From contig NZ_CP063779.1 of assembly GCF_021596945.1 (NCBI RefSeq), positions 4,128,001 to 4,192,000 on the forward strand: a DNA stretch of 64,000 nucleotides, written 5' to 3'. The position numbers and the translations under genes were made by a program. A model generated the notes under the pieces. It had not been told where the DNA came from. It saw nothing but the letters and a program-made list of their open reading frames with translations, and did no database searches. The stretch is from Mongoliitalea daihaiensis (lineage in GTDB: Bacteria > Bacteroidota > Bacteroidia > Cytophagales > Cyclobacteriaceae). Shown piece by piece: positions 1 through 49,328 of this stretch; position 1 is the stretch's first letter, and the number at the start of each line of letters is the position of its first letter.

Positions 1-2632
1 TCTGTTTTAACAATCTCGATAGATGGATTGCTCGCAATTGGAGTTTCTACGCTGTCATCGTCTCCTACTTCTTCTCCGTTTGGTGCATTACCGCCAACAG
101 TTGCCACGTTCAACACGCTACCTCTGTCAACATCTGCCTGATCTACTGTGTAAGTAGCTGTCAAGGTCACCTGAGCAGTTGGTGCCAAGCTTCCAATCAC
201 TTGGTTGATGATGCCTGCCAACTCATCGTTCACAACAACATTCTCCAAGGTTACATTACCTGTGTTAGTGACTGTCAACGTGTAGTTGATCTCATCACCA
301 GCTCCAGCTACTGTGGAACCGTTATCTGTTTTAACAATCTCGATAGATGGATTGCTCGCAATTGGAGTTTCTACGCTATCATCGTCTCCTACTTCTTCTC
401 CGTTTGGTGCATTACCGCCAACAGTTGCCACGTTCAACACGCTACCTCTATCAACATCTGCCTGATCTACTGTGTAAGTAGCTGTCAAGGTCACCTGAGC
501 AGTTGGTGCCAAGGTTCCAATCACTTGGTTGATGATGCCTGCCAACTCATCGTTCACAACTACATTCTCCAAGGTTACATTACCTGTGTTAGTGACTGTC
601 AACGTGTAGTTGATCTCATCACCAGCTCCAGCTACTGTGGAACCGTTATCTGTTTTAACAATCTCGATAGATGGGTTGCTCGCAATTGGAGTTTCTACGC
701 TGTCATCGTCTCCTACTTCTTCTCCGTTTGGTGCATTACCGCCAACAGTTGCCACGTTCAACACGCTACCTCTATCAACATCTGCCTGATCTACTGTGTA
801 AGTAGCTGTCAAGGTCACCTGAGCAGTTGGTGCCAAGGTTCCAATCACTTGGTTGATGATGCCTGCCAACTCATCGTTCACAACTACATTCTCCAAGGTT
901 ACATTACCTGTGTTAGTGACTGTCAACGTGTAGTTGATCTCATCACCAGCTCCAGCTACTGTGGAACCGTTATCTGTTTTAACAATCTCGATAGATGGGT
1001 TGCTCGCAATTGGAGTTTCTACGCTGTCATCGTCTCCTACTTCTTCTCCGTTTGGTGCATTACCGCCAACAGTTGCCACGTTCAAAACGCTACCTCTATC
1101 AACATCTGCCTGATCTACTGTGTAAGTAGCTGTCAAGGTCACCTGAGCAGTTGGTGCCAAGGTTCCAATCACTTGGTTGATGATGCCTGCCAACTCATCG
1201 TTCACAACTACATTCTCCAAGGTTACATTACCTGTGTTAGTGACTGTCAACGTGTAGTTGATCTCGTCACCAGCTCCAGCTACTGTGGAACCGTTATCTG
1301 TTTTAACAATCTCGATAGATGGGTTGCTCGCAATTGGAGTTTCTACGCTGTCATCGTCTCCTACTTCTTCTCCGTTTGGTGCATTACCGCCAACAGTTGC
1401 CACGTTCAACACGCTGCCTCTATCAACATCTGCCTGATCTACTGTGTAAGTAGCTGTCAAGGTCACCTGAGCAGTTGGTGCCAAGCTTCCAATCACTTGG
1501 TTGATGATGCCTGCCAACTCATCGTTCACAACAACATTCTCCAAGGTTACATTACCGGTGTTAGTGACTGTCAACGTGTAGTTGATCTCGTCACCAGCTC
1601 CAGCTACTGTGGAACCATTATCTGTTTTAACAATCTCGATAGATGGATTGCTCGCAATTGGAGTTTCTACACTGTCATCGTCTCCTACTTCTTCTCCGTT
1701 TGGTGCATTACCGCCAACAGTTGCCACGTTCAACACGCTGCCTCTATCAACATCTGCCTGATCTACTGTGTAAGTAGCTGTCAAGGTCACCTGAGCAGTT
1801 GGTGCCAAGCTTCCAATCACTTGGTTGATGATGCCTGCCAACTCATCGTTCACAACAACATTCTCCAAGGTTACATTACCTGTGTTAGTGACTGTCAACG
1901 TGTAGTTGATCTCATCACCAGCTCCAGCTACTGTGGAACCGTTATCTGTTTTAACAATCTCGATAGATGGGTTGCTCGCAATTGGAGTTTCTACGCTGTC
2001 ATCGTCTCCTACTTCTTCTCCGTTTGGTGCATTACCGCCAACAGTTGCCACGTTCAACACGCTGCCTCTATCAACATCTGCCTGATCTACTGTGTAAGTA
2101 GCTGTCAAGGTCACCTGAGCAGTTGGTGCCAAGCTTCCAATCACTTGGTTGATGATGCCTGCCAACTCATCGTTCACAACAACATTCTCCAAGGTTACAT
2201 TACCTGTGTTAGTGACTGTCAACGTGTAGTTGATCTCGTCACCAGCATTCGCTACTGTGGAACCATTATCTGTTTTAACAATCTCGATAGATGGGTTGCT
2301 CGCAATTGGAGTTTCTACGCTGTCATCGTCTCCTACTTCTTCTCCGTTTGGTGCATTACCGCCAACAGTTGCCACGTTCAACACGCTGCCTCTATCAACA
2401 TCTGCCTGATCTACTGTGTAAGTAGCTGTCAAGGTCACCTGAGCAGTTGGTGCCAAGGTTCCAATCACTTGGTTGATGATGCCTGCCAACTCATCGTTCA
2501 CAACTACATTCTCCAAGGTTACATTACCTGTGTTAGTGACTGTCAACGTGTAGTTGATCTCGTCACCAGCTCCAGCTACTGTGGAACCATTATCTGTTTT
2601 AACAATCTCGATAGATGGATTGCTCGCAATTA
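1..2632 (-). repeat. Eight tandem 324-bp near-identical coding repeats
   Basis: The block starting tctgttttaa recurs at 1, 325, 649, 973, 1297, 1621, 1945 and 2269, with a last partial start at 2593, an exact 324-bp (108-residue) period. Each unit encodes one DUF11-like module beginning NPSIEIVKTDNG. Units differ by only a handful of bases. The period is a multiple of three, so copy-number change keeps the frame. The array continues past the left edge. Confidence 0.97.
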
Positions 2633-5600
2633 ATATGATAGTCTCATCGTCTGTAGCGACTAATTCACAGCCCAATACACAAGTACCTGTTGCAGTTGCA
2701 ACATTTGTGATTGGCGTGCCTCTGTCAATATCTTCCTGAGTGACCAAATAGGTAGCTGTAAAAGTAACTGTCTGACCTGGCTCAACTCCATCTCTTGCAT
2801 CAGCTGTCACAAGTTCGGTTAATTGACCCAGTCCTGGGTGGTCATCTGTTACATTTATCTCATTGACTGTTACTGTACCAGCATTTCTTACTACATACGT
2901 GTAGGTAATGACATCTCCTGCTTCGACATTTGATGTCTTATCCGCTGTTTTCGTTATTCTGATTCTTGACGTAGTTTCATACGGCTGAATATCCTCATCC
3001 GTAGCTTCAACTTGCGCTCCTCCAAAATCAGCCGTTACAGTTGCTTCATTTCGGAAAGAAGTATTATTAATATCCGCTTGGGTCAGTGTGTATACTGCCG
3101 TAAAGGTAGTCGCATCCACTTGCCCAGGAGCAAGGGCAGTAATCGGTCCACCGGTAACATCTACCAACGGATCATTCACAACTACATTCGTCAAAGTGAC
3201 ATTTCCTGTATTTGTTACAGTGAATGTGTATGTAATCTGATCTCCAGCTGATGGTCTACCATTACTATTTGTAGTAACCAATGTACCAACCTTTGCAAGA
3301 CCAATAGACGCTTGCGCTTGAATTGGTGTAATCGTTTCGTCATCCGTATGAACTAAATCACAACCTAATACACAAGTACCTGTTGCAGTTGCAACATTTG
3401 TGATTGGCGTGCCTCTGTCAATATCTTCCTGAGTGACCAAATAGGTAGCTGTAAAAGTAACTGTCTGACCTGGCTCAACTCCATCTCTTGCATCAGCTGT
3501 TACAAGTTCACTTAATTGGCCTGTTCCAGGGTGTTCATCAGTAACATTAATATCATTCACTGTTACTGTGCCAGCATTTCTTACTACGTAGGTGTAGGTA
3601 ATAAGGTCTCCAGCAACAACATTTGTTCTCTTATCTGCTGTTTTTCTTACTCTGATTCTTGACGTAGTTTCATACGTCTGAATATCCTCATCCGTAGCTT
3701 CAACTTGCGCTCCTCCAAAATCAGCCGTTACAGTTGCTTCATTTCGGAAAGAAGTATTATTAATATCCGCTTGGGTCAGTGCGTATACTGCCGTAAAGGT
3801 AGTCGCATCCACTTGCCCAGGAGCAAGGGTGGTAATCGGTCCACCAATAACATCTACCAACGGATCATTCACAACTACATTCGTCAAAGTGACATTTCCC
3901 GTATTTGTTACAGTGAATGTGTATGTAATCTGATCTCCAGCTGATGGTCTACCATTACTATTTGTAGTAACCAATGTACCAACCTTTGCAAGACCAATAG
4001 AAGCTTGCGCTTGAATTGGTGTAATCGTTTCGTCATCCGTATGAACTAAATCACAACCTAATACACAAGTACCTGTTGCAGTAGCGACATTCGTGATTGG
4101 CGTGCCTCTGTCAATATCTTCCTGAGTGACCAAATAGGTAGCTGTAAAAGTAACTGTCTGACCTGGCTCAACTCCATCTCTTGCATCAGCTGTTACAAGT
4201 TCACTTAATTGGCCTGTTCCAAGGTGTTCATCAGTAACATTAATATCATTCACTGTTACTGTGCCAGCATTTCTTACTACGTAGGTGTAGGTAATAAGGT
4301 CTCCAGCAACAACATTTGTTCTCTTATCTGCTGTTTTTCTTACTCTGATTCTTGACGTAGTTTCATACGTCTGAATATCCTCATCCGTAGCTTCAACTTG
4401 CGTTCCTCCAAAATCAGCCGTTACAGTTGCTTCATTTCGGAAAGAAGTATTATTAATATCCGCTTGGGTCAGTGTGTATACTGCCGTAAAGGTAGTCGCA
4501 TCCACTTGCCCAGGAGCAAGGGTGGTAATCGGTCCACCGGTAACATCTACCAACGGATCATTCACAACTACATTCGTCAGAGTGACATTTCCTGTATTTG
4601 TTACAGTGAATGTGTATGTGATTTGATCACCTGCGGTTGGCCTACCATTACTATTGCCTGTTACTAAGGTACCAGCCTTTACTATGCTTATTCCTGATTC
4701 TCTAGTGATCGTGGTAGTTGCAGTATCCGTATTTGTTGCTCCTTCTGCACTAGTTACACCGACATTGTTTATAATATCAGCACCTGTATCAATATCTTCC
4801 TGCGTGGCTGCATAAGTTACTGTGAACTCTCTTGATGCACCGATAGCTAAGCTCTCGCCTCCATCAGCTGTCAAGATCTTTTCTGTACCATCCGGTAGAA
4901 CATCCGTAACAACCACACCTGTCAAGTTTACATTACCTTCGTTGCGGATGGTAACTGTATATGTCAAGGTCTGGGGTGAAGAAATATTGTCAATATCTAC
5001 CGTCTTACCTATAGAAATTACGGGGTTTTGACAAATATCAACTCTAGTAATCGTATCATCTTGAACAGTCAAGCCAGAAAGATCACTAACTTCTATATTT
5101 TCGAATGTTGCCGTAACTGTAGCTTGATTTTCAATAAAACCTCTTTCAAGATCAACTTCTCTAACTGGGTAAGAAGCTGTATAAGTCCAGATTTCATCCG
5201 TATCTAATAAGTTATTTCCATTGGTATCGCCACTGACAAAATTGATGGCAACAGATGGATTAACCTCATTAAACAATGGATCAACAATAGTGATATTCCC
5301 TAAAGGCTGATCTCCCACATTGGATACTTCAAAGGTATAAATCAATTCACCATTTGAAGGATCAAAACAACCACTTCCTTCTGATAAAAGAGACCCAATG
5401 GATTTAACCAAAGCAATCGCAGGAGGACAGAATTCTGATGAAGAAGTACCAACTACGGTAGCTACATTACCACATACAGAAGGTAAAGTAAAGTTTACGG
5501 AATTTGCCGTTGTAGGCAAATTAAAGGTTTGGGTCTGACTTGGTGCTAAAGTAATAGAACCGGTTTCAGCACCTCCGTTTGCGTTCCAATTCAGTATCAA

Positions 5601-6965
5601 CTCAAATGCATTGGTGTTCTGAATTTCAAAAGACCTTAAACTATTAGGACTAAATGAACAAACACCTGTAACTATTGGTCGGATAATACATCTATCAGGA
5701 CAGGAAGCTTTTACATCATTCTGAAAAGATCGATTGTTATTAAAAAATAGAGTAACTGTATTTGAACCAGAAACTGTAGTTGTCTCAAAAAATAGTTCAG
5801 AATTAGCCGGAACTGTAATAACTCCCTCTTGTGCATCACCAACAAGATTCCAAAACGCTTCTACATCAAAACTATTCGTATTTCTAATTCTCCATCTTCT
5901 AGTTTGTGTAGGATCATCAGAACAGAAAGATGTTAAAATCAAACGAGCTGGTACAATGAACGTCTCTTCAACGAAACAGCCAAGGCTATCTGTTATTCTG
6001 ACCTGATAAGTGCCAGCATTTATATTAGTTAAGTTTTGATTTGTACCTACTACTTGACCATCTCTAGTCCAAGAATAGGTTAAATTACCTTCTCCACCAG
6101 TTACTGTAATATTAATTGCGCCGTTACTATTGGTGCCAGCTGCTGGGTTGACTGTTCCTGCTATTGAAATAGATTCTGGAACTAAAACTTGTCTCGAAAT
6201 GGTGTTTGGAGCACTGACTCCATCACTAGCGGTTAATGTAACTGTGTATGTACCTGAACTTGCATACGTATGGGTAGGATTTACTTGGGAGCTGGTGTTT
6301 CCATCTCCAAAATTCCATACAAGGTTGTAATTAGCAGGAGCTCCACCAGTAGTTAAATTCGTAAATTTTACAGAGAGGTTTTCACATTCTGTCGCTGAAT
6401 CAAAATTAGCTACTAAAGGTGTATTCACAATAAAAGCAACTTCTGGAAAAGAACATTGAGAATTTCCAGCTGTTGAAGGGCAGGATTTATCATCATTTTG
6501 AGCAGCACCTGTATTCCAGTTAATATAAATATTTTCAACTTCCAGTTTATCACCAAAATTCCATGTAAAATCAGCTATTTTGAATGACTCACCATTGACA
6601 ACATTTCTTGTCTGACCGCTTGTATTTTCAACGACCACACAATTGGCTATTGTTTGCGAACGTACTCCGTTTATAAGAACATCAAACTGTATATGCGGAT
6701 TGTAGCCATTCCCACTGACTGCCCAAGTAGCCCAAATCTGACCAACAACAGGCTCTCCTATTTCCAATCCACTCATAGTAGCTGGATTGAAGCGTACCCC
6801 ATTCATATCTCTAAACTCGTAAGAGACCACTGTCAAATTCTGTTGACGACAGGCAGGATTATTAACAGTAAATGGATTAGTTGGTGTAATAATTTGGGAA
6901 TTACCCGCTAAGGCCCCAAACATCAAAAACACCAAAAACAGGTAAAATTTCATAGAATTATTCAT
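1..6965 (-). CDS. Giant secreted PKD/SprB/DUF11-repeat surface protein (C-terminus beyond window)
   Basis: About 2,320 residues are visible and the frame stays open to the left edge, so the C-terminus is missing. A signal peptide (MKFYLFLVFLMFGALAGNSQ) follows an ATG at 6965 that sits just after a GGAGAG; a second in-frame ATG lies at 6953. After a unique region of about 180 residues come a PKD domain (WNFGDGN near residue 218), a SprB-type repeat (about 262-333, GTYQVRITDS), two related beta-rich modules (about 340-515), and at least 16 DUF11-like modules with the core ITYTFTVTNTGNVTL. Such proteins are exported adhesins; in this phylum they usually use the type IX system, but the C-terminal sorting domain cannot be seen. 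The gene stands alone behind a long AT-rich leader. Surface or adhesion role is inferred from domains only. Confidence 0.88.
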   Translation of the reverse strand, partial: MNNSMKFYLFLVFLMFGALAGNSQIITPTNPFTVNNPACRQQNLTVVSYEFRDMNGVRFNPATMSGLEIGEPVVGQIWATWAVSGNGYNPHIQFDVLINGVRSQTIANCVVVENTSGQTRNVVNGESFKIADFTWNFGDKLEVENIYINWNTGAAQNDDKSCPSTAGNSQCSFPEVAFIVNTPLVANFDSATECENLSVKFTNLTTGGAPANYNLVWNFGDGNTSSQVNPTHTYASSGTYTVTLTASDGVSAPNTISRQVLVPESISIAGTVNPAAGTNSNGAINITVTGGEGNLTYSWTRDGQVVGTNQNLTNINAGTYQVRITDSLGCFVEETFIVPARLILTSFCSDDPTQTRRWRIRNTNSFDVEAFWNLVGDAQEGVITVPANSELFFETTTVSGSNTVTLFFNNNRSFQNDVKASCPDRCIIRPIVTGVCSFSPNSLRSFEIQNTNAFELILNWNANGGAETGSITLAPSQTQTFNLPTTANSVNFTLPSVCGNVATVVGTSSSEFCPPAIALVKSIGSLLSEGSGCFDPSNGELIYTFEVSNVGDQPLGNITIVDPLFNEVNPSVAINFVSGDTNGNNLLDTDEIWTYTASYPVREVDLERGFIENQATVTATFENIEVSDLSGLTVQDDTITRVDICQNPVISIGKTVDIDNISSPQTLTYTVTIRNEGNVNLTGVVVTDVLPDGTEKILTADGGESLAIGASREFTVTYAATQEDIDTGADIINNVGVTSAEGATNTDTATTTITRESGISIVKAGTLVTGNSNGRPTAGDQITYTFTVTNTGNVTLTNVVVNDPLVDVTGGPITTLAPGQVDATTFTAVYTLTQADINNTSFRNEATVTADFGGTQVEATDEDIQTYETTSRIRVRKTADKRTNVVAGDLITYTYVVRNAGTVTVNDINVTDEHLGTGQLSELVTADARDGVEPGQTVTFTATYLVTQEDIDRGTPITNVATATGTCVLGCDLVHTDDETITPIQAQASIGLAKVGTLVTTNSNGRPSAGDQITYTFTVTNTGNVTLTNVVVNDPLVDVIGGPITTLAPGQVDATTFTAVYALTQADINNTSFRNEATVTADFGGAQVEATDEDIQTYETTSRIRVRKTADKRTNVVAGDLITYTYVVRNAGTVTVNDINVTDEHPGTGQLSELVTADARDGVEPGQTVTFTATYLVTQEDIDRGTPITNVATATGTCVLGCDLVHTDDETITPIQAQASIGLAKVGTLVTTNSNGRPSAGDQITYTFTVTNTGNVTLTNVVVNDPLVDVTGGPITALAPGQVDATTFTAVYTLTQADINNTSFRNEATVTADFGGAQVEATDEDIQPYETTSRIRITKTADKTSNVEAGDVITYTYVVRNAGTVTVNEINVTDDHPGLGQLTELVTADARDGVEPGQTVTFTATYLVTQEDIDRGTPITNVATATGTCVLGCELVATDDETIILIASNPSIEIVKTDNGSTVAGAGDEINYTLTVTNTGNVTLENVVVNDELAGIINQVIGTLAPTAQVTLTATYTVDQADVDRGSVLNVATVGGNAPNGEEVGDDDSVETPIASNPSIEIVKTDNGSTVANAGDEINYTLTVTNTGNVTLENVVVNDELAGIINQVIGSLAPTAQVTLTATYTVDQADVDRGSVLNVATVGGNAPNGEEVGDDDSVETPIASNPSIEIVKTDNGSTVAGAGDEINYTLTVTNTGNVTLENVVVNDELAGIINQVIGSLAPTAQVTLTATYTVDQADVDRGSVLNVATVGGNAPNGEEVGDDDSVETPIASNPSIEIVKTDNGSTVAGAGDEINYTLTVTNTGNVTLENVVVNDELAGIINQVIGSLAPTAQVTLTATYTVDQADVDRGSVLNVATVGGNAPNGEEVGDDDSVETPIASNPSIEIVKTDNGSTVAGAGDEINYTLTVTNTGNVTLENVVVNDELAGIINQVIGTLAPTAQVTLTATYTVDQADVDRGSVLNVATVGGNAPNGEEVGDDDSVETPIASNPSIEIVKTDNGSTVAGAGDEINYTLTVTNTGNVTLENVVVNDELAGIINQVIGTLAPTAQVTLTATYTVDQADVDRGSVLNVATVGGNAPNGEEVGDDDSVETPIASNPSIEIVKTDNGSTVAGAGDEINYTLTVTNTGNVTLENVVVNDELAGIINQVIGTLAPTAQVTLTATYTVDQADVDRGSVLNVATVGGNAPNGEEVGDDDSVETPIASNPSIEIVKTDNGSTVAGAGDEINYTLTVTNTGNVTLENVVVNDELAGIINQVIGSLAPTAQVTLTATYTVDQADVDRGSVLNVATVGGNAPNGEEVGDDDSVETPIASNPSIEIVKT
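2633..4690 (-). repeat. Three 693-bp super-repeats, each with two alternating DUF11-like modules
   Basis: Identical landmarks lie 693 bp apart (for example 3012, 3705 and 4398). Each 231-residue unit holds an A module (core DQITYTFTVTNTGNV) and a B module (core GDLITYTYVVRNAGTV, with a CVLGCD cysteine pair near its end). The copies are nearly identical in DNA. Outer edges are approximate. The units are clearly diverged from the neighbouring 324-bp array, so they represent a separate expansion. Confidence 0.93.
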
Positions 6966-9078: not shown

Positions 9079-9155
9079 GTGATTAAGTGATTAGTGAATA
9101 GTGAGTAGTGAACAGTTAGCAGTGAGCAGTTAGCAACAGTGAGCAATTAGCAGTG
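9079..9155. repeat. Heptanucleotide array, consensus AGTGANN
   Basis: About ten imperfect 7-base units can be read in phase (AGTGATT, AGTGAAT, AGTGAGT, AGTGAAC, AGTTAGC, AGTGAGC and so on), interrupted once by AAC. Similar arrays lie at 12522, 13770 and 49275. Confidence 0.85.
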
Positions 9156-9188: not shown

Positions 9189-9233
9189 CTTGTCTTGTTT
9201 CTTGTTTCTTGGTTCTTGCATCTTGTATCGTGT
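9189..9233. repeat. Heptanucleotide run, consensus TCTTGNN
   Basis: Consecutive 7-base units TCTTGTT, TCTTGTT, TCTTGGT, TCTTGCA and TCTTGTA are read in phase. The same unit type recurs at 13917-13955 and, more decayed, near 12793-12807. Confidence 0.75.
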
Positions 9234-9420
9234 CACGTCCTGAAATTTCTTGACACTTTTTTAAGAATAATTCTCTTGTTTATACACCAGCATTATATCG
9301 CCGATCCTGTCTACCAAAGGTAGGAGGCATATATCAACTTATTTCGCGCAAGCATATTTCATTCTTTGTGTCTAACCTCTCGCTTCTCGTTTCTCGCTTC
9401 TCAAATTTATCTTTTAAAGA

Positions 9421-11724: not shown

Positions 11725-12528
11725 ATGAAAATTCTTGTTCCCACTGATTTTTCTGAAAATGCCTTCAACGCATTGGCATTTGCGAAAAATATTGCCAAGC
11801 AACAGAACTCCTCTCTCACCTTGTTTTATGCATTCTATGCAGTGTATGATTTTGCCGCACAGGCTACTGAAATCATCGCTCAAATAGAGGATGATGCAAA
11901 AAAAGCCATGAAAAAATTGGTAAAAGAAGGTCTAGAAGAAGGGTTGACTATTGACTACAAAATCCAACACGGCTCGATAGCCACTGCGGTTACTTCTTAT
12001 GCCTATCAAAACCACTACGACCTCATTGTCATGGGAACACAGGGAGCAAGTGGCATCAAGAAAACATTGATGGGCTCTAATACTGGACATGTTATCAAAG
12101 AAAGTATGGTGCCAGTTCTAGCTGTGCCTACTTCTGCCTCCTTACCCAAAGAGGATAAAATCGCCATCGCTCTGGAATTGAAAAAGGAGTCTGAAGAAAA
12201 CTTTAAGAAATTGTTTCAACTGACAGAAGCACTCAATCTACCTTATAACTTTTTCCATGTAGGAGAAAAAATGAGTTTCGACCAAGAAATTGAATTTAAA
12301 GGTTTAGAGGCGTTCTTAAAAGCGAATCATGCAAACAAATCTTTTGAATTTCAAACCATACAAGCTTCGAACATTCAAAAAGGCGTTCAAAATTATTTAG
12401 GAGATAACCCAAATGTCTTATTGGTCATGTTTTCCAAACAAAAATCCTTCTTTGAGTACCTTTTTAATAAAAGCGAAACACTTGAAATGGCCTACCACAC
12501 GCATGTCCCGTTGTTAGTGATTAAGTGA
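11725..12528 (+). CDS. Universal stress protein, tandem UspA domains
   Basis: The 267-residue protein has two Usp folds. The first (1-136) ends with the ATP-binding pattern G-2x-G-9x-G-S seen in MGTQGASGIKKTLMGS, so it probably binds ATP; the second (about 145-267) lacks this motif. The opening MKILVPTDFSENAFNAL is typical. Such proteins respond to starvation or redox stress. It follows the methyltransferase by 66 bp. The last codons and stop lie inside the start of an AGTGANN heptamer array (GTGATTAAGTGA), so the repeat has replaced or touched the natural 3' end. Confidence 0.9.
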   Translation: MKILVPTDFSENAFNALAFAKNIAKQQNSSLTLFYAFYAVYDFAAQATEIIAQIEDDAKKAMKKLVKEGLEEGLTIDYKIQHGSIATAVTSYAYQNHYDLIVMGTQGASGIKKTLMGSNTGHVIKESMVPVLAVPTSASLPKEDKIAIALELKKESEENFKKLFQLTEALNLPYNFFHVGEKMSFDQEIEFKGLEAFLKANHANKSFEFQTIQASNIQKGVQNYLGDNPNVLLVMFSKQKSFFEYLFNKSETLEMAYHTHVPLLVIK

Positions 12529-12590
12529 GTAGTGAACAGTTGGGAATGTAGAATGAGGAATTTGGAATGAAGAATGAATAATTAGGAATG
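12522..12590. repeat. Compound heptanucleotide array (AGTGANN then GAATGNN)
   Basis: The array begins within the usp stop region as AGTGATT, AAGTGAG, TAGTGAAC, then changes near 12543 to GAATGNN-type units (GAATGTA, GAATGAG, GAATTTG, GAATGAA, GAATGAA). Phase is kept for most units. Confidence 0.75.
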
Positions 12591-12930
12591 TAAGAGAGTC
12601 CTTTGGGTCCTTCGGGGGTGGTTATTTTGTTAATTGTTATGATGTAGGGGCGTTTACTGATTATCTCTATCCAATAACTATTAATCTGCGGCTTTTTCTG
12701 TGAATTCTGCGTTTTCTGCGAGAGAATCGTTGAAACCCGAGGCTATTGAGAAGTTTGACTCTATCAGAGTCTTAAACTTGGTTCTATAACTCATCTTGAT
12801 TCTTGGCTCTTTGAAAAAAATCGTCCAACTTAAGACAATCGAGTCTAATCTCTCGCCTCTCGCTTCTCATCTCTATTACCCGAATCCCTACTTGGCTCCT
12901 GTTTCTTGGTACTTAAAATGGTCCAACTAG
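12529..12930. other. 402-bp convergent gap with mosaic repeats
   Basis: No gene is present. It contains the heptamer array end, a CTGCG-rich stretch (about 12686-12725) resembling one at 13886-13915, a hairpin with a 3-nt loop (12751-12779, AAGTTTGACTCT paired with AGAGTC-TT-AAACTT), a decayed TCTTGNN run (12793-12807) and a TCTCGCC/TCTCGCT run (12850-12872). Confidence 0.75.
12751..12779. terminator. Stem-loop in convergent gap, possible terminator or repeat palindrome
   Basis: AAGTTT-GACTCT is separated by ATC from AGAGTC-TT-AAACTT, giving a 12-bp stem with a 2-nt bulge. No clean T-tract follows on either strand, so termination is uncertain. Confidence 0.4.
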
Positions 12931-13769: not shown

Positions 13770-13832
13770 TGGAGTAGTTAGTAGTGAACAGTGAGTAGTT
13801 AACAGTGATTAGTTAATTAAGTGATTAGTGAT
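13770..13832. repeat. Heptanucleotide array, consensus AGTGANN/AGTTANN
   Basis: Units such as AGTGGAG, TAGTTAG, TAGTGAAC, AGTGAGT, AGTTAAC, AGTGATT, AGTTAAT, AAGTGATT and AGTGATG are read with small slips. It abuts the start codon of the lipase-like gene. Confidence 0.78.
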
Positions 13833-13916
13833 GGGAAGATTGAATCTTAATTTCTCTCTTCGGATACAAATTTTTAAACACGATTTTTTCTGCGTTTTCC
13901 GTGTATTCTGCGAGCT

Positions 13917-13974
13917 TTGTCTCTTGGTTCTTGCATCTTGGTTCTTGTCTCTTTTATGACCTCTCGCTTCTCAA
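13917..13974. repeat. TCTTGNN run followed by a TCTCGCT run
   Basis: GTCTCTTG, GTTCTTG, CATCTTG, GTTCTTG and TCTCTTT are read as 7-base units, followed after a short spacer by CCTCTCG and CTTCTCA (13960-13974). The order matches that in the 9064-9475 gap. Confidence 0.7.
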
Positions 13975-29264: not shown

Positions 29265-30830
29265 ATGCATCTGAATTATCATTTCCTCAAGTTTCTGTGC
29301 CCTGAGTTGGACTCCTCTTTCCAAGGATTTCAAATACGTTCATGCTTTTCTCAGAATAAAGATGAATTGGTCATCTTGCTTCAAAAAGATGAACAGACGG
29401 CTTGCATCCGGGCAAATCTTTTGCCCATATATTCATGTCTGAGCTTTCCGAAGGACTTTAAAAGAAGCAAAAAAAATACTGTCAACCTCTTTGACGAGTG
29501 GATTGGACAAGAAGTCCATTCAATCACTCCACTGAATTATGAAAGGGCATTCACTATCAATTTGAAAAGTGGAGATGTAATTATATTTAAACTTCATGGA
29601 ACTAGGAGCAATATTCTATACTACAAATCAAGTGAAGAATATCCCATTAAAATTTTCAGGAATGAAATCAGAGAAGATTTAGAGATTCTTAAGGATTCCT
29701 TATCCGTCCAACTTGACTTAAGCTTTGAACGGTTTAACGAACTTGCTGGGAATGCATCAAAATTTTTACCCACCTTGGGTAAAATCCCTAGAGAATGGCT
29801 AAAATCACAAGGATATATCGATGCTGATCTGAATACAAAGTGGTCGCTTATTCAAGAAGTTCAGGATAGGCTAGAAAGCCCGCTATTTTCGATTGTCCAA
29901 CTAGGAGGAGAATACCATCTCTCACTCCTTCCTGAACACTCTGTAATTTTTCAATCAAGCAAAGCCATAGAAGCATGCAATGAATTGTTTCGCTACCGTG
30001 TGGTTGTTCAAACCTTTCATAAAGAAAAAGCAAAATGGGTTCGTCAACTTGAAGATCAACTAAAAAAGAGTCAAGCATATATTCAAAAAACAGAAGAAAA
30101 ACTTTTAGAACTTCTAGATCAAAATTCTCCTGCTCAAAAAGCAGATGTCCTGATGGCAAATTTACATCAAATTCCCAGGGGAGCAGTTTCTGCTACGCTT
30201 TTCAATTTCTACACCAATCAAGAAGAAGAATTTTCTTGGAAACAAGGTGTGAGCCCACAGAAAGTCGCCGAAAATTTTTATAGAAAATCAAAAAACAGAA
30301 AAATTGAAATCAACCAATTAGAAGAAAATTTGAGGGCTAAAGAAAGGTTGGTCGAACAGCTGCAAGAACAACGAAGTGAGCTACTAACAATTGAGGATTT
30401 TAAAAGTCTACGTCAATTTGTCAAAGATAACAACTTCACCCACACAGCAAAATCACAAGAAGAAACTGTCCCATTCAAACGTTTTGAAATTGATAGTTTT
30501 GAAGTATTAGTCGGTAAATCGGCTAAAGCAAATGACGAATTATTGCGCAGATATGCCTGGAAAGAAGACTTATGGTTACATGCAAAGGACGTCTCTGGCT
30601 CTCATGTACTGATAAAATATAAATCAGGAATTCCATTTCCTTCACAGGTGATAGAGAAAGCTGCTGCTTTAGCTGCTTATTATTCAAAAAACAAGAACGA
30701 AAGTTTAGCGGCCGTCATAGTTACGCCCGCTAAATATGTGCGCAAAGCAAAAGGTTCTGCCCCAGGGGCTGTAATGGTTGACAAAGAAAAAACTGTATTG
30801 GTCATTCCTCAAGACCCAGCTAGCATTTAA
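29265..30830 (+). CDS. rqcH: NFACT-family ribosome quality control protein
   Basis: The 521-residue protein matches the RqcH/Rqc2/NEMF family: NFACT-N region (about 1-180), helix-hairpin segment, a long coiled coil (about 255-380, EKAKWVRQLEDQLKKSQ) and a C-terminal NFACT-R domain with DLWLHAKDVSGSHVLIK and YVRKAKGSAPGAV. RqcH binds stalled 50S subunits and adds alanine tails to mark nascent chains for degradation. It follows the MBL gene by 2 bp, so it is in the phosphorelay operon. Its TAA shares TTAA with the convergent gene. Confidence 0.9.
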   Translation: MHLNYHFLKFLCPELDSSFQGFQIRSCFSQNKDELVILLQKDEQTACIRANLLPIYSCLSFPKDFKRSKKNTVNLFDEWIGQEVHSITPLNYERAFTINLKSGDVIIFKLHGTRSNILYYKSSEEYPIKIFRNEIREDLEILKDSLSVQLDLSFERFNELAGNASKFLPTLGKIPREWLKSQGYIDADLNTKWSLIQEVQDRLESPLFSIVQLGGEYHLSLLPEHSVIFQSSKAIEACNELFRYRVVVQTFHKEKAKWVRQLEDQLKKSQAYIQKTEEKLLELLDQNSPAQKADVLMANLHQIPRGAVSATLFNFYTNQEEEFSWKQGVSPQKVAENFYRKSKNRKIEINQLEENLRAKERLVEQLQEQRSELLTIEDFKSLRQFVKDNNFTHTAKSQEETVPFKRFEIDSFEVLVGKSAKANDELLRRYAWKEDLWLHAKDVSGSHVLIKYKSGIPFPSQVIEKAAALAAYYSKNKNESLAAVIVTPAKYVRKAKGSAPGAVMVDKEKTVLVIPQDPASI

Positions 30831-49274: not shown

Positions 49275-49328
49275 TCAGTGAACAGTGAGCAGTGAATAGT
49301 GAGTAGTGAACAGTTAGAGGTGAGCAGT
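49275..49328. repeat. Heptanucleotide array, consensus AGTGANN
   Basis: AGTGAAC, AGTGAGC, AGTGAAT, AGTGAGT, AGTGAAC, AGTTAGA and GGTGAGC are read in perfect 7-base phase, directly after the protease stop codon. Confidence 0.88.

Follow-up and report, generated by a model that had tools for sequence, protein, structure and literature searches.

Degenerate heptanucleotide arrays of fixed polarity at gene borders in the Mongoliitalea daihaiensis genome

Heptamer arrays in four gaps of the window

The window is the whole 64,000-nt stretch of DNA analysed here, positions 4128001-4192000 of a single-contig genome of 4,816,617 bp. The four arrays of the degenerate heptamer AGTGANN listed in a preliminary description were all recovered, and all lay on the + strand. 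Matches to AGTGANNAGTGANNAGTGA with up to three mismatches numbered 19 in the window, of which 18 were in or at the four arrays and one was on the - strand at 29922, while 100 dinucleotide shuffles of the window gave a mean of 1.94 (sd 1.47, maximum 6). Arrays of GAATGNN, TCTTGNN or TCTCGNN shared the gaps with AGTGANN, the exception being gap 4, where AGTGANN alone was found. The gaps and their flanking genes contained the following features, including copies of two dispersed elements (R1 and R2).

Start codon 9063, - strand: fatty acid hydroxylase-like gene, left of gap 1
9079..9155, + strand: AGTGANN array, gap 1, starting 16 bp right of start codon 9063
9193..9230, + strand: TCTTGNN array, gap 1
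9231..9368, + strand: dispersed element R1, gap 1, whose copies start at about TGTCWCGTCCTGAAATTACTTGACA
9378..9402, + strand: TCTCGNN array, gap 1, on the side of the 3' gene end 9476
3' end 9476, - strand: metallo-beta-lactamase-fold/rhodanese gene, right of gap 1
11725-12528, + strand: universal stress protein gene, TGA stop 12526-12528
12522..12545, + strand: short AGTGANN array, gap 2, below the size used for the genome-wide AGTGA gap counts
12543..12592, + strand: GAATGNN array, gap 2, after the AGTGANN array
12793..12805, + strand: TCTTGNN array of two units, gap 2
12850..12868, + strand: TCTCGNN array, gap 2, on the side of the 3' gene end 12931
3' end 12931, start codon 13767, - strand: alpha/beta hydrolase gene, between gaps 2 and 3
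13770..13832, + strand: AGTGANN array, gap 3, starting 3 bp right of start codon 13767
13840..13950, + strand: dispersed element R2, gap 3, containing TTTTCTGCGTTTTCCGTGTATTCTGCGAGCTTT, its end overlapping the TCTTGNN array
13917..13953, + strand: TCTTGNN array, gap 3, on the side of the 3' gene end 14033
3' end 14033, - strand: enoyl-CoA hydratase gene, right of gap 3
Stop 49274, + strand: zincin-like (DUF5117/DUF4953) gene, left of gap 4
49275..49328, + strand: AGTGANN array, gap 4, directly after the TGA stop 49274

The preliminary description had the units in a strict seven-base phase and each array beginning at a coding end. Slips of +1 and +3 bp near 9086, 9134 and 13815 contradicted the strict phase. 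The description of the borders as coding ends was half right: 12528 and 49274 are stops of + strand genes, but 9063 and 13767 are starts of - strand genes. The array of gap 2 does supply the stop codon of the universal stress protein gene, as had been proposed, with the TGA at 12526-12528 lying inside the array. In the sister species of the same genus (G001; the genome under study is G000) this gene ends with TAA and has no array, and gap 4 has a shorter array at the same place, which provides the stop of the zincin-like gene. The R1 copy of gap 1 has no counterpart in the same gap of the sister species, whose TCTTG array lies directly against its TCTCG array.

No Rfam family matched the window at gathering score. 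Between 8900 and 14200, promoter-like sites (17 vs 14.2 expected) and terminator-like sites (5 vs 4.0 expected) were near expectation. A nine-base periodic motif (TTTTCTGCG/TTTTCCGTG/TATTCTGCG) occurred at 12694-12720 and about 13885-13916, in or near R2, and 5-mers repeated at a spacing of 9 were mildly enriched between genes (4.22 per kb intergenic vs 2.24 per kb genic). The left edge of the window (1-2631) carries some eight tandem copies of a 324-bp repeat, nearly identical to one another (98% matches), in a minus-strand open frame of ~2320 codons, which was called at 3-6965 and reaches the window edge.

Genome-wide distribution, polarity and unit structure

A search of the whole genome gave 99 overlapping exact three-unit matches to AGTGANN, 76 on the + and 23 on the - strand. 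A reversed-pattern control was uninformative for this heptamer, AGTGA being unchanged on reversal; for TCTTGNN, the genome gave 173 three-unit matches compared to 1 for the reversed pattern. The arrays were by no means peculiar to the window. They were spread over the chromosome and densely clustered at 3.59-3.61 and 3.93-4.00 Mb, and at least 75 array-bearing gaps were found in this closed genome. A 66-kb stretch (L033 to L036, chromosome 3929274-3995300) was very dense in composites, and a ~207-bp unit with AGTGANN and TCTTGNN arrays was repeated in tandem at 3929274, 3929481 and 3929688.

The suggestion that the arrays are restricted to gaps was borne out in 40 roughly evenly spaced stretches (800 kb, of which 111,256 bp or 14% were intergenic), where all 22 period-7 arrays were intergenic; in array-rich parts these systematic stretches had been displaced off stretches already sampled. 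In the same sample, the other periods from 4 to 15 gave 1-5 intergenic matches each, apart from 13 for period 14, and only periods 6, 9 and 15 occurred within genes (3, 2 and 10 arrays). When the 40 stretches were combined with 11 targeted stretches and the window from 7001, 5-mers repeated at exactly 7 bp had densities of 9.93 per kb between genes and 1.23 per kb within them, and spacings of 5-6 and 8-13 bp gave 1.8-4.2 per kb between genes. Genes were called by a purpose-built dicodon caller, whose calls were cruder for other genomes. Among gaps of at least 150 bp, arrays were present in 1/68 divergent, 27/156 tandem and 10/42 convergent gaps, and the spaced stretches alone gave 0/53, 10/110 and 5/31, respectively.

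The array families had a fixed polarity. Along the array strand, AGTGANN and GAATGNN lay toward the left border of the gap and TCTTGNN and TCTCGNN toward the right border, as counted in 75 gaps, most of which had been selected for having arrays and some of which, such as that of 6.7 kb at 1430262, probably owe their great length to genes that the caller missed. AGTGA was in the left half in 28/32 gaps and GAATG in 15/15, while TCTTG was in the right half in 46/52 gaps and TCTCG in 31/32. Consequently, a gap entered 5' to 3' shows a purine-rich unit whichever border one starts from. In an earlier gap set, families sharing a gap were mostly co-oriented, with 50/51 AGTGA-TCTTG pairs, 60/67 AGTGA-GAATG pairs and 61/69 of the other pairs (GAATG-TCTTG 27/30, AGTGA-TCTCG 15/18, TCTCG-TCTTG 12/13, GAATG-TCTCG 7/8). 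The overall family order was violated in gaps with several composites; TCTTG preceded AGTGA in 15/50 pairs, and a gap may contain several composites. A fixed order of AGTGANN then GAATGNN was rejected, since 24 co-oriented pairs had that order and 36 the reverse.

The arrays were also nearer to gene ends than random placement would put them, as the preliminary description had supposed. In 14/32 gaps AGTGA lay 25 bp or less from its own border, and in none was it that near the other border (2.6 expected); for GAATG the counts were 4 gaps vs 0 (0.7 expected). Within 50 bp of the right border, the corresponding counts were 21 vs 1 for TCTTG (7.7 expected) and 23/32 vs 0 for TCTCG (4.6 expected). 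The claim that arrays always lie to the right of a coding end therefore held as a general tendency along the array strand but not for the kind of border, which was a start codon in 17 and a stop codon in 15 of the 32 AGTGANN gaps. Median distances were 5 bp (AGTGA) and 23 bp (TCTCG) at 3' gene ends, and 67 bp and 67.5 bp, respectively, at starts. The idea that the purine strand is always the mRNA strand of the upstream gene failed, AGTGANN being equally often at start and stop borders.

In ten genes a sense AGTGANN array lay 30 bp or less from the 3' end, a count for which the array of the universal stress protein gene was too short, and all ten stopped with TGA (7) or TAG (3) and none with TAA, which ended 679 of 1138 sampled genes (p = 0.003 for TGA), although some array-like gene ends in this count may be errors of the caller. 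The finding that arrays supply or adjoin stop codons thus extended beyond the universal stress protein gene. Across 21 bases of AGTGANN units, all three frames contain TGA, which allows an array reaching a 3' gene end to supply the stop.

Replication strand was assigned from GC skew, which flipped sign near 1.13 and 3.6 Mb in the sampled stretches; the origin and terminus were placed from these flips, with stretches of opposite sign at 1.90, 4.00, 4.52 and 4.56 Mb and with dnaA located away from both. On this assignment, the array strand was the lagging strand in 50 gaps and the leading strand in 18, and 7 gaps were mixed (50/68 unmixed gaps, p = 1.3e-4). After thinning to one gap per 25 kb, 29 lagging and 11 leading gaps were left (p = 0.006). 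Tandem gaps of leading-strand genes were oriented 27 lagging, 7 leading and 2 mixed, those of lagging-strand genes 9, 4 and 3, convergent gaps 10, 7 and 2, and divergent gaps 4 lagging and 0 leading. The bias was therefore clear overall and weak in convergent gaps, in a set of gaps mostly chosen for their arrays, and its weakness there suggests that replication may not be its direct cause. An orientation set purely by the genes was rejected, because the lagging strand was followed in 9 of the 13 unmixed tandem gaps of lagging-strand genes.

The most enriched heptamer cores included AGTGA/CAGTG, TCTTG, GGAAT/GAATG, CCTTT and TCTCG. In exact AGTGANN arrays of at least three units, the free pair was a purine (104/112) followed by a pyrimidine (105/112), and position 7 of TCTTGNN was a pyrimidine in 194/213 units. 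AGTTA was a common variant of the AGTGA core. Among 55 arrays found without an exact-core requirement and afterwards phased by their cores, those of the AGTGANN family kept the consensus base in 72-90% of units in the core columns, while their commonest base reached 54-55% in the free columns. In the six exact AGTGANN arrays that had at least five units, adjacent units were less alike than expected by chance (11/51 alike vs 18.6 permuted, p = 0.002), and units two apart showed a non-significant excess of likeness (20/45 vs 16.1). This unit order suggests two-unit steps or a different process. TCTTG and TCTCG arrays showed no such effect between adjacent units.

Comparison with other genomes and with known repeats

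In the sister species, the polarity was the same (TCTCG right in 8/8, TCTTG right in 13/16 and AGTGA left in 3/3), as judged from 30 loci taken from 85 matches to three TCTTGNN units. Syntenic gaps had arrays in both species in 6 cases, in one species only in 2 and in neither in 53, with 5 of the 7 own-genome array gaps in this count lying on pieces of the sister genome chosen with prior knowledge. Indels of at least 3 bp were counted in 12 orthologous gap pairs, sampled largely because arrays were present. Six of 16 indels within arrays were multiples of seven (7, 7, 7, 14, 14 and 21) and the other ten were not, compared to 11/97 multiples of seven outside arrays in the same gaps. The process altering whole units that the preliminary description had proposed was thus supported for some of the differences and not for most of them.

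Gene order was strongly shuffled between the two species, with 41/95 plain gaps broken in the sampled stretches. Three of the four window arrays were at synteny breaks. A larger test, in which 16 of 73 array gaps (665 gaps in all) were comparable with the sampled part of the sister genome, gave 7 syntenic and 9 broken array gaps and 54 syntenic and 41 broken plain gaps (p = 0.42), 5 of the 9 broken array gaps being in one cluster at 3.59-3.61 Mb. By three length classes, 1/1, 2/2 and 6/12 array gaps were broken vs 14/49, 14/24 and 12/20 plain gaps, the last class being gaps of 300-1200 bp. The systematic stretches held no comparable array gap (21/41 plain gaps there were broken), and array gap 378307, broken in an earlier look, was outside the larger count. 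A first, smaller test, biased toward shared array gaps, had given 14 syntenic and 4 broken array gaps and 12 and 9 plain gaps, respectively.

R1 and R2 had many copies in both species. An R1 query including its arrays gave 62 BLAST pieces in the own genome and 59 in the sister species, and R1 had no match in plasmids. TCTTGNN and TCTCGNN arrays came next after many R2 copies. Four array gaps (4137063, 1395738, 3851005 and 624901) contained R1 or an R1-R2 composite in only one of the two species, so that the arrays look like landing sites. Most R1 copies started near TGTCTCGTCCTGAAATTACTTGACA, and loci L204, L209 and L225 contained only the first 32 bp of R1 with an R2 copy in the same locus.

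Four AGTGANN units in a row were found in 4/39 genomes, counting the own genome and its genus mate, and in 1 of the 23 genomes of the same family that lie outside the genus. Among the matches listed, 30 of 80 such loci were inside ORFs (either strand, at least 150 codons), and three or more different free dinucleotides were present in only 3 of the other 50. Four TCTTGNN units occurred in 20/395 genomes of the phylum, the own genome included, but the reversed control pattern occurred in 18/395, and the presence of TCTTGNN alone is therefore not special. What marks out some genomes, among them G132, G296, G414, G136, G249 and, of the same family, G229, is that their TCTTGNN units are varied and dispersed. 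We sampled 16 stretches with degenerate TCTTGNN arrays from three of them (G132, G296 and G414). In G296 and G414, which belong to another family, all ten gaps measured 44-204 bp. TCTTGNN lay on or close to their right border (-10 to 103 bp), and the left border had CAAGANN in 6/10, AGTGA-like units in 1 and neither in 3, as read by eye on crude gene calls. In G132, also of another family, TCTTGNN arrays lay ~60-70 bp past the 3' end of 5S rRNA at 4/6 loci (L340, L341, L343 and L344, in rRNA operons), these being the four G132 loci searched with Rfam.

Reports of heptanucleotide arrays in bacteria go back to about 1990, and we know of no agreed origin or role for them. Arrays of the short tandemly repeated repetitive (STRR) type are degenerate, dispersed heptanucleotides that change by units. 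STRR heptanucleotides were reportedly described in cyanobacteria by Mazel in 1990, and Costa is said to have found degenerate heptanucleotides in the Nostoc tRNA-Leu intron in 2002. The arrays described here resemble these repeats in kind, but they have other sequences and occur in another phylum. REP and REPIN elements are short, dispersed and intergenic, with a palindromic foldable unit and an associated RAYT transposase. Our arrays are likewise short, dispersed and intergenic; however, REP and REPIN elements are not heptamer tandem arrays, and array gaps showed no excess of folding. As dispersed tandem arrays of 7-base units in mainly non-coding DNA, our arrays belong with the STRR and long simple sequence repeats. 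In the account of Mrazek 2007 given in PMC4679880, heptanucleotides were the commonest class of long simple sequence repeats (5-11 nt) in most genomes studied, and slippage with a 7-nt polymerase contact was proposed; polar composites are absent from that account.

The closest likeness in sequence is to the TAACTGA direct repeats of Beggiatoaceae, cyanobacteria and five Bacteroidetes, which are mostly intergenic, reach gene edges, sometimes overlap ORF ends and were proposed to act in untranslated regions (MacGregor 2015, PMC4679880). In the Beggiatoa genome, one exact unit occurs in 2-6 copies, mostly at start codons, while some species have long arrays mixed with other heptamers, and two Cyanothece strains differ mostly by indels in 7-nt increments (PMC4679880). 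The reverse complement of TAACTGA, TCAGTTA, corresponds in register to AGTTA plus TC, which is among the unit types of the AGTKANN family found here, and the repeat's orientation toward the start codon is the polarity of AGTGANN at starts. In contrast, the arrays described here have degenerate units rather than one exact unit (AGTGA followed by a purine and a pyrimidine, with an AGTTA variant, as judged from the unit consensus), at least four families, polarity, stop as well as start borders (a 3' end in 15/32 gaps, and a median of 67 bp from starts) and a lagging-strand bias. Eight Microcystis sets between stop codons had the same chromosomal orientation, and whether this holds genome-wide was posed as a question (PMC4679880). 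Our genome shows a bias of the kind asked about. A search of open-access titles and abstracts, outside which lay most subscription literature and the cyanobacterial papers of the 1990s, found no paper on polar heptamer composites or replication-strand bias. The arrays are genuine and genome-wide, an unusually well-ordered example of a kind of repeat known from other bacteria, and their fixed direction and chromosome-copying bias look new.

Possible origin and role of the arrays

We propose that these are slippage-maintained heptamer arrays confined to gene borders, which serve as insertion sites for two dispersed elements, and we are evenly divided on whether this reading is right. The arrays, which differ by whole units in some cases, would grow and shrink in place by 7-base units during replication, through slippage or unequal recombination. 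Their observed confinement to intergenic DNA would reflect selection, as a 7-base step breaks reading frames. Since the polar composites run mostly along the lagging strand, their origin or orientation may be linked to replication, and R1 and R2, whose insertions we observed, would enter arrays and spread them apart. What we infer, as opposed to what we observed, is that slippage drives the arrays, that replication orients them and that selection confines them. Together, slippage and border restriction cover many of the facts and leave the polarity, the alternating units and the strand bias to be explained. Simple slippage predicts that neighbouring units are alike, whereas AGTGANN neighbours were less alike than permuted ones. 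Slippage alone explains neither the fixed polarity nor the degenerate TCTTG-core arrays of other families.

The proximity to borders fits a functional reading equally well. The arrays may be binding sites in untranslated regions for a sequence-specific protein or RNA with a 7-base register, acting on translation, RNA stability or termination, a reading that we regard as possible and not probable. It would agree with the lower variation of the core columns, in arrays phased by those cores, and with the excess of syntenic arrays in both species over those in one only, on partly pre-chosen pieces of the sister genome; the AGTGANN polarity at starts is also that reported for TAACTGA (PMC4679880). 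Yet AGTGANN occurs about equally at starts and stops, at different distances from them, the TCTTGNN arrays of G132 lie beyond 5S rRNA in a place without translation, and the orientation in tandem gaps of lagging-strand genes leans to the lagging strand. A more specific role, in which the purine-rich and pyrimidine-rich halves pair as RNA to form bidirectional terminators, would suit the greater frequency of arrays in convergent and tandem gaps than in divergent ones. We consider it extremely unlikely, because array gaps folded less stably than controls relative to shuffles (mean z -0.91/-0.69 vs -1.70/-1.83; from 26 array gaps and 33 control gaps, out of 40 each).

The remaining readings derive the arrays from outside events. 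That they are tails or parts of R1 or R2, spread along with the element, is suggested by the TCTTG and TCTCG arrays following many R2 copies and by the tandem ~207-bp composites. We think this unlikely, given that orthologous array gaps lack R1 and R2 in one species and have them in the other, and that most array gaps of G296 and G414 are too short for either element. Alternatively, each gap would be a scar joining two DNA ends that had been 3'-extended with purine-rich heptamers by templated, telomere-like addition. The geometry fits such templated addition, which the preliminary description had offered next to slippage: in this genus a purine-rich unit is read into the gap from each border, the CAAGANN-TCTTGNN layout recurs in G296 and G414, and three of the four window arrays are at synteny breaks. 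Nevertheless, array gaps were not significantly enriched at breakpoints in the small sample compared (9/16 vs 41/95), nor at 300-1200 bp (6/12 vs 12/20), and we hold this origin to be very unlikely. Slippage is the simpler process of the two, though the order of the units misfits its simplest form.

The border polarity and the lagging-strand orientation are predictions that any mechanism has to meet, and the closed genome, the sister species and the distant genomes with the same core permit a direct test of mechanisms. Whatever their origin, the arrays illustrate how repeats between genes can become the source of a stop codon and a target for insertions. We strongly doubt a more speculative reading, in which a dedicated activity, linked to replication or repair, lays degenerate purine-rich heptamers 3'-ward from both borders in a manner comparable to terminal repeat addition. 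If such an activity existed, the polarity and the free positions would reflect a template and not the slippage of existing units, and the purine-pyrimidine free pair after AGTGA would be as expected from wobble templating.
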